Part shown: in pieces, positions 20,094 through 54,120 of the stretch
Position numbering within the stretch: the first letter of the stretch is position 1
How the letters are laid out: each line of letters begins with the position of its first letter
Source: Fusobacterium varium
Lineage (GTDB): Bacteria; Fusobacteriota; Fusobacteriia; Fusobacteriales; Fusobacteriaceae
Direction: 5' to 3'
DNA length: 64,000 bases
Assembly: GCA_900637705.1 (NCBI GenBank)
Contig: LR134390.1
Location: 1,178,001-1,242,000, forward strand
Notes under the pieces: generated by a model
What the model was told of the DNA's origin: nothing
Seen by the model: the letters and a program-made list of their open reading frames with translations, nothing else
Databases searched by the model: none
Position numbers and translations under genes: made by a program

Positions 20094-22305
20094 ATGAGCA
20101 AAGAACTAAAAGAGAAGATAGCACTTCTTAATGATGAAGAAAAATATCAGGAAATTGTAGATATGATTCTTGAGATAAAAGAGAAAGATAGAGATTTTGA
20201 AATTATATCTGAATGGGGAAGAGCAGAAAATAATCTAGGAAATTATAAGAAAGCCTTGGAAATACTTTTTTCTATCAAAGAAGAGGGAGAAGAAGATTCG
20301 TTGTGGAATTATAGAGTAGGATATGCTTATAGTGGTTTGGAAAATTATGAAAAAGCAGCTGAATATTTTGAGAAATCAAAAAATTTAGATCCTGATTATG
20401 CATGGACATATTTTGAATTAGGCTGGAATCTTCAAAGAATTGAAAAAATGAGGAAGCATTAAATGCTTTAAAAAAGCTGTAGAATTAGATTCAGAAAATA
20501 CTTTTGCTCTTGCAGAAATAGGAGATATATATGAAAAGTTAGATAATTATGAAAGTGCATTAGAATATTTTAAAAAGGCTGAAGAGTTTGGGAGAGATGA
20601 CTACTGGGTGATTACACATATAGGGTGGTGTCTAAATCAATTAGATAGAGATGAAGAAGCATTAGAATACTATATGAAAGCACTTGCAGGAGAAGAGGAT
20701 AATATATGGCTTTTATCACAGATTGGAGTAACGCTTGGAGTTATAAGAAGATATGAAGAGGGAATAGAATATTTAAAGAAAGCAGAAGAACTAGGAAGAA
20801 ATGATATATGGTTAAATTCAGAGTTGGGGTGGCAGTTAGCAAGAATAGAAAAACATGAAGAAGCAGTAGAATATTTTAAGAAGGCTGAAGAATTAGGGAG
20901 AAGTGATACTTGGCTTTATAATCAATTAGGCTGGAATCTTGGAGTTTTGGATAAATATGAAGAAGAATTAGAATATCTTTATAAATCTAAAAAAATATCA
21001 GAAGACGATGTATGGCTTGAATCTGAAATAGGTTGGACTTTAAGAAATATGTCAAAACCAGAAGAAGCTCTGGTATATTTAAAGAAAGCACAAGAATTGG
21101 GAAGAGATGATGCATGGCTTCATTTAGAAATGGGACTTTCTTTGGGAGATTTAGGAAAAAATGAAGAAGCATTGGCAGAATTAAAGAAAGCAGAAGAAAA
21201 TGGAGATGAAAGTATTCGTCTTTATTCTACTATAGCATGGAATTTAGGACAGTTAAATAAAAATGAAGAAGCTTTGAAGTATTTAGAAAAAGTAGAGAAA
21301 TTAGGAAGAAACGATATATGGCTCTATTCAGAAATGGGTTGGAATTTAGATGCTGTAGGAAAAACTGAAGAAGGGGAAAAATATCTCCAAAAAGCCATTG
21401 AAATGGGAAGAAATGATTCGTGGATATATTCTGAAATAGGATATAGCCTTTCAAGAAATCAAAAAGTAGAAGAAGGGATAGAATATTATCTTAAAGCGAA
21501 AGAGTTAGGAAGAAATGATGTATGGTTGAACTCAGAAATAGCTTGGTCATATGATATTATTGGAAAGTATGAAGAGGCACTTCCATATCTTGAAACAACT
21601 GAAAAATTAGGTAGAGATGATATATGGCTGAATTGTGAATTTGCTATCTGTTTAGGAAGAACTGGGAAAAGTGAGGAAGCAATAGCAAGATTATTTAAAG
21701 CTCAAGAGTTAGGAAGAGAAGATGACTGGCTGTATTCAGAGATAGCTTATAATTATGGAAGGCTGGATAGAGCAGAGGAAGCTTTAATTTATTTGGATAA
21801 AGCAGAAAAGTTAGGAAGAGAAGATGTTTGGTTATATTCAGAAATAGGTTGGAATTTAGGAACTTTAAAAAAATATGAAGAGGGATTAAAATATTTTGAA
21901 AAAGTAATAGAGATGGGAAGAAATGATGAGTGGATCTATTCACAGATAGGCTGGACTCTAGCCAAGTTAGGAAGAAATGAAGAGGCAGTAGAAAACTTTA
22001 AAAAGGCAGTTGAGCTTAATCCATATGACAGCTGGATAGAATATAATCTAGGAAGAGTTTTAAGAAAGTGTGGGAAATTCATTGAAGCTATGGAACATAT
22101 AAAAAAATCTGCTGAAATAGGTGGGTATGAAGGCTGGACTGATTTGGAATTAGCTTGGGATTATGCTGAGATAGATGAAAAAGAAATAGCGAAAGAATAT
22201 CTTGAAAATGTAGAAAAATATTTAGATATAAATTCTGATGCTGTCAAAGAAGATTATAATATAGTTAAATCATTAATAAATGCTATGCCAATTATGTTTA
22301 GTTAA
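20094..22305 (+). pseudogene. Long tetratricopeptide-repeat protein with two frame breaks
   Basis: A cytosolic, acidic TPR protein of ~737 residues once two missing bases are restored, in A6 runs at 20443-20448 and 20470-20475. As given, it splits into 20094-20462 and ~20608-22305, with an open stretch between. It is an almost uninterrupted ladder of 34-residue units whose most regular form reads LGRNDIWLYSEIGWNLG followed by KYEEALEYFKKAEE. The Trp after Asp and the GW pair are unusually constant. Such repeats form a superhelical protein-binding scaffold. No signal peptide, membrane segment or enzymatic domain is seen. An AAGGAGGAA site precedes the ATG. Partner and role unknown. Confidence 0.78.
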
Positions 22306-22404: not shown

Positions 22405-22448
22405 AAATAGAAAAGACAGGCATTCCTTATTAGGAAACCTGTCTTTTC
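22405..22448 (-). terminator. Bidirectional terminator overlapping the end of the ABC operon
   Basis: AAAAGACAGG (22411-22420) pairs with CCTGTCTTTT (22438-22447). The stem overlaps the stop codon of the ATPase gene on the minus strand and has T-rich sequence on both sides, so it can also end the TPR transcript. Confidence 0.8.
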
Positions 22449-23083
22449 TTCTTGTTTACCACTATATCTTTTATATTCCCGTTTTCCATAACAACTATTC
22501 TGTCAGAAATCTGATTAACAAAATCTATTTCGTGGCTTACTATTACCATAGTTATATTGCTTGAATCTCTGAGTTGTTCAATAACATTCAATACTTCTTT
22601 TACCATATCAGGGTCAAGAGCAGATGTAGGTTCATCAAAAAGTAAAACTTCTGGATTTCTTGCTAAAGCTCTGGCAATAGCTACTCTTTGTTTCTGTCCA
22701 CCAGAAAGAGCTTTAGGATAAAAATCAGCTCTGTCCTTAAGTCCAACTTTTTCTAAAAGATCATAAGCTATTTTTTTTGCTTCAGATTTATCCATTTTAT
22801 CTACAACTATGAGTGATTCCATTATATTTTGAATAGCTGTCTTGTGTGGAAAAAGGTTAAAAGATTGAAAAACCATTCCCATTTTCTTTTTATCAGGAAC
22901 TTTTACATCTCCAGAATCTATTTCTTCCAAGCCTATAAGACATCTGAGAAGAGTAGATTTACCACCTCCAGATGGTCCTATAATGGAAACAACTTCTCCT
23001 TTTTCGATACCAAGATTAATATTTTTAAGTATTACATCTCCTTCTAAATACTGTTTAGATAAATTATTAACTTGAATAATCAT
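22430..23083 (-). CDS. Polar amino-acid ABC transporter ATPase (probably histidine)
   Basis: A 217-residue HisP/GlnQ-type ATPase with Walker A GPSGGGKSTLLR (~37-48), Q-loop VFQSFNLFPHKT, signature LSGGQKQRVAIARAL, Walker B VLLFDEPTSALDPD and the switch His in IVSHEIDFV. The Walker A has GGG where GSG is more common, still consensus (GxxGxGK[ST]). It is last in a three-gene operon with the permease, one base apart, and the binding protein. Substrate is inferred as histidine from the His-rich leader peptide at 24673-24726. Confidence 0.9.
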   Translation of the reverse strand: MIIQVNNLSKQYLEGDVILKNINLGIEKGEVVSIIGPSGGGKSTLLRCLIGLEEIDSGDVKVPDKKKMGMVFQSFNLFPHKTAIQNIMESLIVVDKMDKSEAKKIAYDLLEKVGLKDRADFYPKALSGGQKQRVAIARALARNPEVLLFDEPTSALDPDMVKEVLNVIEQLRDSSNITMVIVSHEIDFVNQISDRIVVMENGNIKDIVVNKKKRQVS

Positions 23084-23084
23084 A

Positions 23085-23711
23085 TTATATCATCACCTTT
23101 TTTTCCATTTTTTTAAAGAATAAAACAACTATTGTAGAAAGACCCAAATAAATAACTGCACATATAAAAAATGGTGTTATTGAGAAATCACGAGTAACAA
23201 GTTCTCTTGAATTTCTTAATATCTCAGCCATTCCAATAGCAGAAACTAATGAAGTATCTTTGATAAGTGATATAGCTTCATTTGATAATGGCGGAAGTGC
23301 TGTAATAAGAGCCTGTGGGATTATTATTCTAATCATAGTCTGCCAGTACTTCATACCAAGTACTTTTGCAGCTTCATATTGTCCTGGATCAATTCCCAGA
23401 ATGCTTCCTCTAAATATTTCACAGAAATAAGCTGTATAGTTTATAACAAATGTAAGAGAAGCAGCAGCAAAAGGTGATAAAGTAATACCAACTACTGGAA
23501 GACCATAGTATACAAAGAAAAGCTGCAGTAAAAGTGGCGTTCCTCTGAATATCCATGTATACACTTGGATAATATTGCTTAATGTTGTATTTTTTGAAAC
23601 TCTTCCTAGGGATAATAATATCCCTAGAGGAAGAGAGAAAAGCATAGTCACAACATATAAGTTAACTGTTAATTTCATACCTTTTAAAATAAATATTATA
23701 TTTCCGTCCAT
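23085..23711 (-). CDS. Polar amino-acid ABC transporter permease (probably histidine)
   Basis: A 208-residue HisM/GlnP-type permease: GMKLTVNLYVVTMLFSLPLG, then VYTWIFRGTPLLLQLFFVYYGLP and the EAA loop YEAAKVLGMKYWQTMIRIIIPQALI. It makes about five membrane spans and presumably forms a homodimer, because only one permease gene is present. It sits between the binding protein and the ATPase genes on the minus strand. Substrate inferred from the leader peptide. Confidence 0.9.
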   Translation of the reverse strand: MDGNIIFILKGMKLTVNLYVVTMLFSLPLGILLSLGRVSKNTTLSNIIQVYTWIFRGTPLLLQLFFVYYGLPVVGITLSPFAAASLTFVINYTAYFCEIFRGSILGIDPGQYEAAKVLGMKYWQTMIRIIIPQALITALPPLSNEAISLIKDTSLVSAIGMAEILRNSRELVTRDFSITPFFICAVIYLGLSTIVVLFFKKMEKKVMI

Positions 23712-23732: not shown

Positions 23733-24498
23733 TTAGTTGTTCCTAGCCATTTTAAAGAAATTTGGTCAAATGTTCCATCTTTTTTCATTTCATCTAGTAA
23801 TCTATTGATTTCATCTAGTAAGGCTTTGTCATCTTTTCTTAAAGCTATTGCAAAGTATTCATCTGATAAAGATTCTTCAGAGAAGCTTAAAGTATTTTCT
23901 TAGCATTGTAGTATTTTCCAGAGATGGCGTCCATAACAACTGCATCTGTTCTTCCAGCTTCAAGATCAAGAAGTGCTTCAACATTTGTTGCATATTTTTT
24001 AATTCCTTTAAGTTTTGGTGCAATGGCATTTCTTTCAACTGCTTGAGCTCCAGAGCTTCCTAATTGAACTCCTACTACTTTTCCTTCCAATTCACTGACT
24101 TTATTTATTTCATTACCTTTTCTAGAAAAAATAATCTGTCCATCTACCAGATATGGAGTAGAGAAGGCAGCTTGTTTGCTTCTTTCTTCTGTTATTGTCA
24201 TTCCATTCCATACCATATCAATATTCTTACTTCTAAGATCGAAAATGATTCCGTCCCACTCACAAGGTTTGAATTTTACTTCAACACCCATTCTTTTAGC
24301 AACTTCTTTAGCAAGGTCAATGTCAAATCCAACTATTTCTTCGTTTTCATCTCTGAATCCCATTGGAGCAAAAGTAGCATCTAAGCCAACTGTGAAGTAT
24401 CCATCTTTTTTCACTTTTTCCAAAGAATTGTCAGCTGCAAATAAGCTGATAGAAGCTGATACCATAATAACTAAAACTGCCATAAATAATTTTTTCAT
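23733..24498 (-). pseudogene. Polar amino-acid binding protein (probably histidine), frameshifted
   Basis: The frame from 24498 has a signal peptide (MKKLFMAVLVIMVSASISLF, then AADNS) and SBP family 3 motifs: VGLDATFAPMGFRDENEEIVGFDIDLA, WNGMTITEERSKQAAFSTPY, GVQLGSSGAQAVE and DAVVMDAISGKYY. It stops at 23887, ~50 residues short. Adding one base near the T4 run at 23895-23898 restores KKNTLSFSEESLSDEYFAIA and a normal C-terminus ending LKWLGTT at 23733. The restored length of ~255 residues is usual for the family. It is the first structural gene of the operon, behind the histidine leader/attenuator. Confidence 0.85.
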
Positions 24499-24536
24499 AA
24501 AGATCTCCTCCCGTATTATTAAATCAAAATTAAAAT

Positions 24537-24570
24537 AAAAAAGCCATCTGATACAAGTATCCAGATGGCT
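24537..24570 (-). terminator. Attenuator terminator of the histidine transport operon
   Basis: On the minus strand AGCCATCTG (24570-24562) pairs with CAGATGGCT (24550-24542), extended by GATAC/GTATC with one bulged G, then TTTTTTATTTTA. It lies between the leader peptide and the binding-protein gene, so it must be read through for expression. Confidence 0.82.
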
Positions 24571-24600
24571 TCAACTAAATTAGAAAGCATTAAGTTCCAC

Positions 24601-24648
24601 CATAGATACAGACTCGTTTTTGAATTACAACATGAGTCTGTATCTATG
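24601..24648 (-). promoter_or_regulatory. Perfect 15-bp leader hairpin of the attenuator
   Basis: CATAGATACAGACTC and its exact complement (24601-24615 and 24634-24648) enclose an 18-base loop. The downstream arm of the RNA ends GTATCTATGG, which can alternatively pair with CCATCTGGATAC, the 5' arm of the terminator. That makes it a candidate antiterminator switch. The pairing scheme is my inference. Confidence 0.65.
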
Positions 24649-24672
24649 AATTAAATTCACAAAAACAAACTC

Positions 24673-24726
24673 TTATCTATGATGATGGTGATGTAATGTG
24701 TTTTTAAGAACTTTAGTAACTTTCAT
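24673..24726 (-). CDS. Histidine leader peptide (attenuation)
   Basis: A 17-residue open frame, MKVTKVLKNTLHHHHHR, with five consecutive His codons and a good AGAGGAG site 6-7 bases upstream. It is too short for normal gene calling. It lies 30 to 70 bp after a strong promoter and before a 15-bp hairpin and a rho-independent terminator, upstream of a polar amino-acid ABC operon. This is the layout of his-type transcription attenuation, in which a ribosome stalling at His codons under histidine starvation prevents terminator formation. It identifies the operon as a probable histidine importer. Confidence 0.88.
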   Translation of the reverse strand: MKVTKVLKNTLHHHHHR

Positions 24727-24763
24727 AATTATCTCCTCTTTAATTAAAATTTATTATGAACTT

Positions 24764-24792
24764 ATAATACTCTCATAAAAAGAAAATGTCAA
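24764..24792 (-). promoter_or_regulatory. Promoter of the histidine leader and ABC operon
   Basis: TTGACA (24792-24787) and TATTAT (24769-24764) with a 17-bp spacer on the minus strand, about 38 bp upstream of the leader peptide start. Confidence 0.75.
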
Positions 24793-24824: not shown

Positions 24825-25391
24825 TTATCTAAACTTAATAATACCATTTTCAAGAGAATCAACCACAGCAAGAGCTTCTACTTTAATACCATTATCAGTC
24901 AACAATTTTTCACCTTGCTGAAATCCTTTTTCTACTGCTATACCAGCACCAATAACTATAGCACCAGCAGATTCAACTAATGTTTTAAGACCTAATACAG
25001 CATTTCCCATAGCTAGAAAATCATCTACAATAAGAACTTTATCATTAGGTGTTAGAAATTCTTTAGCTACACAGATTGTATAATCTTTATTTTTAGTGAA
25101 TGAAAAGACATTAGTTGTATAAAAATCTCCCATAGTAGAAGGAATTTTCTTTTTAGCAAAAACAAGAGGCACATTGAAGGCGTAAGCAGCAGCCAGACCT
25201 ATTGCAATTCCAGAAGCCTCTATTGTAAGTATTTTATTAACTCCCTGATCTTTAAATCTTCTTTTAAATTCTTCTCCCATAGCCATCATTAGATTAGGAT
25301 CTATTTGATGGTTTAAAAAACTATCTACTTTCAGAATATTTGTTCCAATGGCTTTACCATTTTTCTCTATATATTCTTTTAATAATTTCAT
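24825..25391 (-). CDS. xpt: Xanthine phosphoribosyltransferase
   Basis: A 188-residue type-I phosphoribosyltransferase of the Xpt group, converting xanthine and PRPP to XMP in purine salvage. It starts MKLLKEYIEKNGKAIGTNILKVDSFLNHQIDP, the typical Xpt N-terminus. The PRPP loop is VLIVDDFLAMGNAVLGL, preceded by EASGIAIGLAAAYAF and VPLVFAKKKIPSTM. Length is standard. The start has an AGGAGG-like site (CGGAGGAA). I found no purine riboswitch in its 5' region, unlike the xanthine permease operon at 53.8 kb. Monocistronic. Confidence 0.93.
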   Translation of the reverse strand: MKLLKEYIEKNGKAIGTNILKVDSFLNHQIDPNLMMAMGEEFKRRFKDQGVNKILTIEASGIAIGLAAAYAFNVPLVFAKKKIPSTMGDFYTTNVFSFTKNKDYTICVAKEFLTPNDKVLIVDDFLAMGNAVLGLKTLVESAGAIVIGAGIAVEKGFQQGEKLLTDNGIKVEALAVVDSLENGIIKFR

Positions 25392-52450: not shown

Positions 52451-53758
52451 TTAATGTTTTTTTAATTTTTCATCTAAAGGTAGAACAATATTAAGAATCA
52501 CAGCAATAGAACCAGAAACAACTATTCCAGAACCACCAAATATAAGCTGAATACTTTCAGGGAAATATTTAAGAGCAGCAGGAACACTTCCAAGTCCATA
52601 ACCTAATCCTAAAGAAACAGATAAAATAACAGCATTTCTACCTACAAGGGGTTCTTTTGTAATAAGATTGATACCACTTATAGAGATCATGGCAAAAATC
52701 ATTACTAAACTTCCACCAAGAACACTAGCAGGAACTATTGACAGAATAGCACCTATTTTAGGAAAGAAAGCTCCTGCAACTAAGAAAGCTGCTCCAGTAC
52801 CAACAACAAATCTGCTCATGATACCAGTCATTGCAACTATACCAGTATTTTGGCTGAAAGATGTAGTTGGCAGAACAGAAAATACAGAAGCAAGTGCACT
52901 TCCAAATCCATCAGCTAAAATACCACCAGAAAGTTCTTTATCAGTAACTTCTCTATTAGCTCCTCCCATTGTAACTCCAGACATATCTCCTACTGTTTCA
53001 ACAGCAGAAACTATAAACATCATTATCATTGCTAAGCATGCATCTGCATGGAAAGTTATTCCATAGGTAAAAGGGGTAGGAAAACTTATAATAGCAGCAT
53101 TTCTTACAGGAGTAAGATCAACTTTTCCCATAAAGAAAGCAACAATAAATCCAACAACTGTTCCTACGAATATGGAACCAGTACTTGTGATTCCTTTAGT
53201 AAATTGTTTAAAAAATATAACTGTTATAAGAACTACCATACCTATAAAAAGATTTGGAAAAGAACCAAAATCAGCACTTCCAACTCCACCAGCAAAGTTG
53301 CTTACTCCAACTGGTAAAAGAGATAATCCAATAGATAAAACTATTACACCTGTTACAACAGGAGGAAAATATCTTCTTATTTTCTTTATGATGGCACCTA
53401 TAAATATTTCAAATATAGCACCAACTAAAGCAGCTCCAAGAATACCTTCATATCCATATTTGCTTCCAATAGAAAGGGCAACAGGAACAAAAGCAAAACT
53501 TGTACCAACAACAATTGGAAGCCTAGCTCCAATTGGGCCAATACGGTATGCTTGAATTAAAGTATTAACTCCAGCTACAAGCATAGTACATTGAATAAGA
53601 AAAGTTTTTGTTTCACTTGGCATTTTCATAGCTCCAGCTACAATAATTAGAGGAGTAATATTACTTACAAACATGGCAAGAATGTGTTGAAGACCAAGAG
53701 GAATTGCCTCTCTTAGAACTGGGATACCATCAAGATCATATGGTGATGTGTTTCTCAT
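52451..53758 (-). CDS. NCS2-family xanthine/uracil permease
   Basis: A ~435-residue nucleobase:cation symporter-2 permease with ~14 helices: ILAMFVSNITPLIIVAGA, GTSFAFVPVALSIGSKYGYEGILGAAL, SAVETVGDMSGVTMGG (the QH-type region with the key acidic residue), GFGSALASVFSVLPTTSFSQNTGIVAMTGI and LGYGLGSVP. The frame extends to 53776, but TTGGAGGT is the ribosome site for the ATG at 53758 (MRNTSPYDLDGIPVL). SQNTGIVAMTG is typical of PbuX/UapA-type purine permeases. With the purine riboswitch and the xdh genes, xanthine or hypoxanthine import is likely. Confidence 0.92.
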   Translation of the reverse strand: MRNTSPYDLDGIPVLREAIPLGLQHILAMFVSNITPLIIVAGAMKMPSETKTFLIQCTMLVAGVNTLIQAYRIGPIGARLPIVVGTSFAFVPVALSIGSKYGYEGILGAALVGAIFEIFIGAIIKKIRRYFPPVVTGVIVLSIGLSLLPVGVSNFAGGVGSADFGSFPNLFIGMVVLITVIFFKQFTKGITSTGSIFVGTVVGFIVAFFMGKVDLTPVRNAAIISFPTPFTYGITFHADACLAMIMMFIVSAVETVGDMSGVTMGGANREVTDKELSGGILADGFGSALASVFSVLPTTSFSQNTGIVAMTGIMSRFVVGTGAAFLVAGAFFPKIGAILSIVPASVLGGSLVMIFAMISISGINLITKEPLVGRNAVILSVSLGLGYGLGSVPAALKYFPESIQLIFGGSGIVVSGSIAVILNIVLPLDEKLKKH

Positions 53759-53823
53759 TTTTTCGTTTACCTCCAAGATTTTACTTCACATATCTCTGAA
53801 AGGGAAGAAAGGAAGAGGAAAAT

Positions 53824-53875
53824 AAAAAAGACTATTTCCTTTCTCAAAGACTACAATGTGAAAGAAAATAATCCT
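53824..53875 (-). terminator. Riboswitch expression-platform terminator
   Basis: On the minus strand AGGATTATTTTCTTTC (53874-53860) pairs with GAAAGGAAATAGTC (53843-53830), followed by TTTTTTA. The 5' arm can instead pair with AATAGTCCT (53896-53888) right after the aptamer, giving an antiterminator. Confidence 0.75.
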
Positions 53876-53902
53876 AAAATATAAAAAAGGACTATTAAAT
53901 TC

Positions 53903-53968
53903 ACCCATAGCGGCTTGTTAATTGGCAACCCGTAGAGACTCCTGACCATATTACAGGGATATATGAGT
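53903..53968 (-). promoter_or_regulatory. Purine (guanine-type) riboswitch aptamer
   Basis: The minus strand matches the purine riboswitch: P1 ACTCAT/ATGGGT, P2 CCTG/CAGG with loop TAATATGGT, the J2/3 core AGTCTCTAC, a P3 with loop CCAATTAA, and CCGCTATGG closing P1. The discriminator base is C (CTATGG), as in guanine/hypoxanthine-sensing rather than adenine aptamers. It precedes a terminator and the xanthine permease-xdh operon. P3 is less regular than usual. Confidence 0.88.
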
Positions 53969-54120
53969 AATTTATTTTTTAATAATTTTACTTACTTCAA
54001 TTTCATTTTATAATATTATACAGTTAAAACATTTTAATTGTACTCTCTATCTCTATTATAAAATCTGCATAAAAATAATATCATACTTCCTCTAACATTT
54101 CAACAATTTTTTTCTTTTAA

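Follow-up and report, generated by a model that had tools for sequence, protein, structure and literature searches.

We conclude that a short element on the minus strand of the window (the whole 64,000-nucleotide stretch of DNA analyzed here) is a ribosome-mediated transcription attenuator which senses charged histidyl-tRNA through five His codons in a leader peptide, controls an amino acid importer whose substrate is probably histidine, and belongs to a modular family related to the orphan trpB motif (Rfam RF04312). In the absence of any expression data, we put the probability of this reading at about 0.9. What we observe are the parts of the element, their conservation, their complementarities, and the match between leader codons and downstream genes. 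The earlier note on this DNA recognized the attenuator, but missed both its kinship with RF04312 and its membership in a family that serves many amino acids.

Anatomy of the element and its operon

The strands of the leader RNA are named A (the leader end), B (after the stop codon), C and D (which form hairpin P1), and E and F (which form the terminator). The features are as follows:

24764-24792, minus strand: promoter, TTGACA (24792-24787), 17 nt, TATTAT (24769-24764); 11 of 12 consensus matches
about 24737-24732, minus strand: Shine-Dalgarno (SD) sequence AGGAGA, 5′ of the leader ORF
24673-24726, minus strand: leader peptide ORF of 17 codons, MKVTKVLKNTLHHHHHR*, read from the sequence
24679-24693, minus strand: the five regulatory His codons (the sensor), CAT CAC CAT CAT CAT
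24658-24672, minus strand: strand B, GAGUUUGUUUUUGUG, immediately 3′ of the leader stop and complementary to strand C
24634-24648, minus strand: strand C, 5′ arm of P1 (the 15-bp hairpin; P1 of the trpB motif)
24597-24615, minus strand: strand D, 3′ arm of P1 plus a GUGG extension; its partners are C, the leader end, or E (antiterminator)
24557-24571, minus strand: strand E, terminator 5′ arm and loop side, whose CCAUC and GAUA form the antiterminator with D
24537-24550, minus strand: intrinsic terminator 3′ arm (strand F) with its U tract, placed by sequence and by E:F compensatory changes
24532-24650, minus strand: RF04312 (trpB motif) relative, 46.3 bits against a gathering score of 59, full length (1-107)
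23887-24498, minus strand: gene 1, polar amino acid ABC substrate-binding protein (SBP_bac_3, TIGR01096 and others), frameshifted at its 3′ end
23085-23711, minus strand: gene 2, polar amino acid ABC permease (BPD_transp_1; HEQRo_perm_3TM over cut-off)
22430-23083, minus strand: gene 3, polar amino acid ABC ATPase (ABC_tran)

The earlier note had claimed a 17-residue leader with five consecutive His codons, a TTGACA-17-TATTAT promoter, a 15-bp hairpin, and a rho-independent terminator, and all are present: i) the leader is led by an SD sequence and its C-terminal end reads HHHHHR*; ii) the promoter departs from consensus at a single position; iii) the hairpin is perfect, with 24648-24634 paired to 24615-24601; and iv) the terminator has a T run after its 10-bp stem (24571-24562 paired to 24550-24541). 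The leader RNA is predicted to fold far better than dinucleotide shuffles of itself (-59.7 versus -37.1 kcal/mol, z -5.9, equaled by 0 of 200 shuffles). An SD-led short ORF, tandem codons cognate to the inferred substrate of the importer, and an intrinsic terminator before the first gene, as expected for an attenuator, are all in place.

The claim that a polar amino acid importer lies downstream holds for the presence of the genes, but the binding-protein gene is frameshifted in the assembly: its ORF stops early, at 23887-23900, where a run of A lacks one base by comparison with relatives, and the remainder lies in another frame. The operon may be damaged in this strain, or a base call may be wrong. 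A xanthine phosphoribosyltransferase gene (24825-25391, over the NCBIfam cut-off) immediately precedes the leader and shares its strand, and a 565-residue protein of TPR-like repeats is encoded past the ATPase gene on the other strand (20608-22305).

Conservation across the genus

The test set earlier, that related genomes should carry the same parts in the same place, was passed: in 12 of 12 genomes of the genus, HHHHH, hairpin, and terminator all lie 5′ of the orthologous gene. The same 12 orthologs share the promoter (TTGACA, a 17-nt spacer, and TATNAT, 30 to 37 nt before the leader ATG), and the His codons always number exactly five, with synonymous changes among them and variable leader N-termini. 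Related genera have His-rich leaders at the corresponding position, and 36 orthologous or similar binding-protein genes are preceded by one. A His-leader copy, MKRFREAMHHHR (L188, G081:C1:975981-976105), was also seen in another family of the same order.

We could find no hisD in any of the 12 genus genomes, whereas 13 of 14 control genomes have one, and the genus thus looks auxotrophic for histidine.

Kinship with the trpB motif

The trpB motif (RF04312, SRC-39-1) was ranked as a strong riboswitch candidate when it was described in 2024. More than 900 representatives were reported, from Firmicutes and Fusobacteria, and the commonest position was 5′ of an uncharacterized amino acid-type ABC transporter. 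Its authors saw that the right arm of P1 contains an antiterminator, were unable to exclude a classic attenuator, and kept a separate category for motifs with upstream ORFs in which they did not place the trpB motif (PMC11109978). The words "leader peptide" do not occur in the main text of that paper. The match of the window copy to RF04312 covers both hairpin and terminator (E about 1e-5 for the stretch searched), although neither this copy nor any other in 98 Fusobacteriota genomes reaches the gathering threshold of 59 bits. Because the P1 core is shared, the window element is likely homologous to RF04312. The two are alike in the P1 hairpin CAUAGAUAC...GUAUCUAUG, in the terminator, in the antiterminator within the P1 right arm, and in their location in the 5′ UTRs of amino acid genes, and Bacillota members scoring above threshold have the same anatomy as the window element. 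They differ in that the trpB motif was described without a leader peptide; the present analysis adds leader codons, strand B, and a ribosome-based mechanism.

We collected 149 matches in all, from genomes that are samples rather than complete sets. RF04312 matches occur in 46 of the 98 Fusobacteriota genomes, and only within the window's family; in 2 of a sample of 398 genomes from the phylum of an Oscillospiraceae genome; and, for one Bacillota family, in 19 of 29 genomes, of which 12 exceed the gathering score. Short SD-led ORFs that end close to where P1 begins accompany 84 of 94 matches, compared with 121 of 940 dinucleotide-shuffled upstream regions, and a codon run or double Trp is found in 70 of 94 matches compared with 1 of 940 shuffled regions; among matches above 55 bits this signature is invariably present (16 of 16). 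Low-scoring matches that have no convincing leader (for example G021_L108, G023_L113, G005_L046, G054_L123, G057_L135, and G508_L098) look like chance double hairpins, and were rejected. After inspection, 16 matches were excluded from the pairing tests described below; one of these, G011_L047, has a WWW leader 5′ of a TrpX-family gene and may be real.

We also built a model, R1, from the RNA part alone, leaving the leader codons out, and searched the Fusobacteriota anew. All 55 previously unseen copies have an SD-led leader, and 38 pass the run test; those that fail are mostly proline leaders 5′ of putP. Asn runs were recovered 5′ of asnA, a class absent from the training set, including in two genomes of the window's genus. 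The new copies are not all independent, since many are orthologs of classes already modeled.

The sequence UUGU in the loop of P1 is kept across leader classes in Fusobacterial copies (80 of 111 in alignment A1, compared with about 21 in shuffles), but is not clearly present in Bacillota copies; it is perhaps a polymerase pause site.

Leader codons match downstream genes

In nearly all credible copies an SD-led leader is present, and its codons fit the gene that comes next. We used NCBIfam to identify these genes, several of them from partial sequences scoring below full-length cut-offs. His leaders precede hisZ; Trp leaders, trpX and trpB; Tyr leaders, tyrS; Thr leaders, thrS; Asn leaders, asnA; Pro leaders, putP; and mixed Trp/Tyr/Phe leaders, DAHP synthase. 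The codons name the right amino acid in 8 of 8 downstream gene classes whose function is independently known, and this calibrates the reading of histidine for the window importer.

That the importer takes histidine, as the earlier note proposed, is well supported by this calibration, and the absence of hisD from the genus is consistent with it; it remains an inference from regulation, because the sequence of the binding protein does not fix the ligand. The same attenuator could instead control an importer for another substrate, arginine or cystine for example, with the His codons reporting a general or linked starvation. The family models for the binding protein favor cationic amino acids or cystine equally with histidine, all below cut-off, and neither these models nor solved relatives in the PDB fix the ligand; we nonetheless consider this alternative unlikely, given that the codons are right in all the known gene classes and that the genus lacks hisD.

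Other transporters of unknown substrate can be read in the same way, and the resulting predictions are histidine for the window importer, tyrosine for AgcS symporters and a TrpX-like system, and tryptophan or leucine for NSS transporters. Specifically, five-Tyr leaders 5′ of AgcS-type sodium symporters (L133, L134, L140, L206, L221, and L115) suggest that the substrate of these symporters is tyrosine, not alanine or glycine, and a six-Tyr leader precedes a TrpX-family binding protein that falls well below the TrpX cut-off (L204, G015:C2:1166-1288), which we predict to belong to a tyrosine importer. The leader MKRFREAMCMS, next to a MetN-like ABC gene (L210, G084:C1:1162484-1162601), is possibly a methionine version of the switch, on weak evidence.

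The variety of leaders and genes also bears on what the RNA is. If it bound a metabolite, in line with the riboswitch proposal for the trpB motif, the short ORF would be incidental, and it is true that RF04312 was published as a strong candidate with a conserved P1 and a terminator (PMC11109978), and that Fusobacterial copies conserve UUGU in the loop of P1. A single ligand is hard to reconcile, however, with copies that precede His, Trp, Tyr, Thr, Asn, Pro, and mixed aromatic amino acid genes and have leader codons that track gene function; moreover, P1 is no elaborate aptamer but a simple hairpin, flanked on either side by strands complementary to it. We regard a riboswitch as very improbable.

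Five consecutive His residues are a metal-binding sequence, and the peptide itself might act, for example by binding nickel, copper, or zinc, without codon-dependent stalling. In homologous leaders the same place is taken by runs of other residues (Tyr5, Thr4, Asn5-9, Pro, or Leu), each matching its genes, which leaves this idea scarcely tenable. A tRNA-sensing RNA of the T-box kind, despite similar target genes (synthetases, transporters, and biosynthesis) and a comparable terminator/antiterminator switch, can be virtually dismissed, as there is no RF00230 match in the window or in 11 of the 12 genus genomes, and a translated codon run stands in place of a specifier loop. The riboswitch, metal-peptide, and T-box readings were accordingly rejected on target variety, non-His homologous leaders, and the absent T-box match, respectively.

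Returning to the attenuator, we think it probable that RF04312 and its relatives form one homologous modular family in which a fixed six-strand chassis has been recruited repeatedly. Its exchangeable leaders, with codons for His, Trp, Tyr, Thr, Asn, Pro, or mixed aromatic residues and probably also for Leu, Phe, and Met, would control synthetases, transporters, and biosynthesis, doing a T-box-like job in a genus mostly without T-boxes (one was found in only 1 of the 12 genomes), and would allow transporter substrates to be read from codons. On this reading, an RNA class with more than 900 representatives gains a mechanism, and there is probably no reason to go on looking for its ligand; in Fusobacteria and some Bacillota, leader-peptide attenuation for many amino acids rests on one common RNA scaffold.

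Strand pairing and the proposed switch

Across 133 copies, the B:C, D:E, leader-end:D, and C:D pairings all beat both shuffles and cross-class pairs on average. For B:C the mean duplex energy over the family is -15.6 kcal/mol, compared with -6.9 for shuffled B and -9.0 when B and C are taken from different leader classes. Pairing of the leader end with D is clear in the His and Trp classes, but not in the Tyr and mixed-aromatic classes.

Among 20 His orthologs, B:C is 99.4% paired, and the alternative arrangements (leader-end:D with B:C; C:D; and B:C with D:E) are kept in 93 to 99% of cells, as against 12 to 55% when slid. RNAalifold chooses leader-end:D enclosing B:C, together with the terminator. 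In several of these orthologs C:D has degenerated at its base, with B:C still intact. The E:F terminator stem shows compensatory changes across the 20 orthologs; the alternative helices do not exceed shuffle controls in a formal covariation test, which is uninformative here because the helices hardly vary.

Folding of the window RNA with a ribosome stalled at the first His codon gives 16 expected D:E pairs and only 0.7 expected C:D pairs, whereas a ribosome at the stop codon gives 17 expected C:D pairs. The stalled and stop states thus differ as attenuation requires, in computation and not by measurement, and for the window RNA the dependence of antiterminator/terminator exclusivity on ribosome position is supported by folding only. 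When 78 leaders were treated in this way, C:D fell on stalling in 51 and rose in none; the remaining 27 had no clear C:D switch, and D:E moved in the wrong direction in 9. These are equilibrium calculations which ignore kinetics and pausing.

The six complementary strands explain how such a switch could operate, and hence point to a ribosome-mediated attenuator. When His-tRNA is short, the ribosome would stall on the His codons, leaving B free to pair with C; D would then be free for E, no terminator would form, and the operon would be transcribed. When histidine is ample, the ribosome would reach the stop codon and cover the leader end and B, so that C:D and E:F could form and transcription would end. 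Without translation, either the leader end would pair with D around B:C, or C would pair with D, and the terminator would again be expected to form. We wish to stress that three steps are inferred: that the ribosome stalls, that the structures switch in vivo, and that the element responds to histidine.

Comparison with known systems

The enterobacterial his operon attenuator is alike in having a leader peptide with His codons, alternative hairpins, an intrinsic terminator, and stall-dependent antitermination. It differs from the window element in three respects: i) the gene set under control of the window element encodes an importer, and the genus lacks hisD; ii) its leader end can pair with D around B:C; and iii) its core sequence is common to leaders for other amino acids. 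The His_leader family (RF00514) has no match in the window at any threshold used.

Outside the Proteobacteria, His leaders were reported earlier for his operons and hisS/hisZ of Firmicutes (PMC9413887, PMC2965389). These share His codon runs and the combination of leader, attenuator, and terminator with the window element, but they serve biosynthetic operons or hisS/hisZ, and have not been described as a chassis common to many amino acids; Fusobacteria are not mentioned in the main texts of the two papers. The ilvB-II motif was likewise a riboswitch candidate first, and was later shown to behave as an upstream-ORF attenuator (PMC10272879); it differs in being confined to a single gene in a single genus, and to branched-chain amino acids. 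T-box riboswitches resemble the RF04312-related family in that one RNA family serves the synthetase, transport, and biosynthesis genes of many amino acids, but they sense uncharged tRNA directly whereas the RF04312-related family uses translated codons.

We were unable to find leader-peptide attenuators in Fusobacteria, or the trpB motif treated as an attenuator, in the open-access literature; subscription papers lay outside the search. An older attenuation survey (PubMed 20198868) was outside our comparison, so that individual Fusobacterial leaders may have been mentioned before.

A purine riboswitch elsewhere in the window

The window also contains a purine riboswitch (RF00167, 55.6 bits, 53888-53986, minus strand). 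It appears ordinary, and lies just 5′ of a purine-permease-like ORF and xanthine-dehydrogenase-like genes (region 52451-53986).
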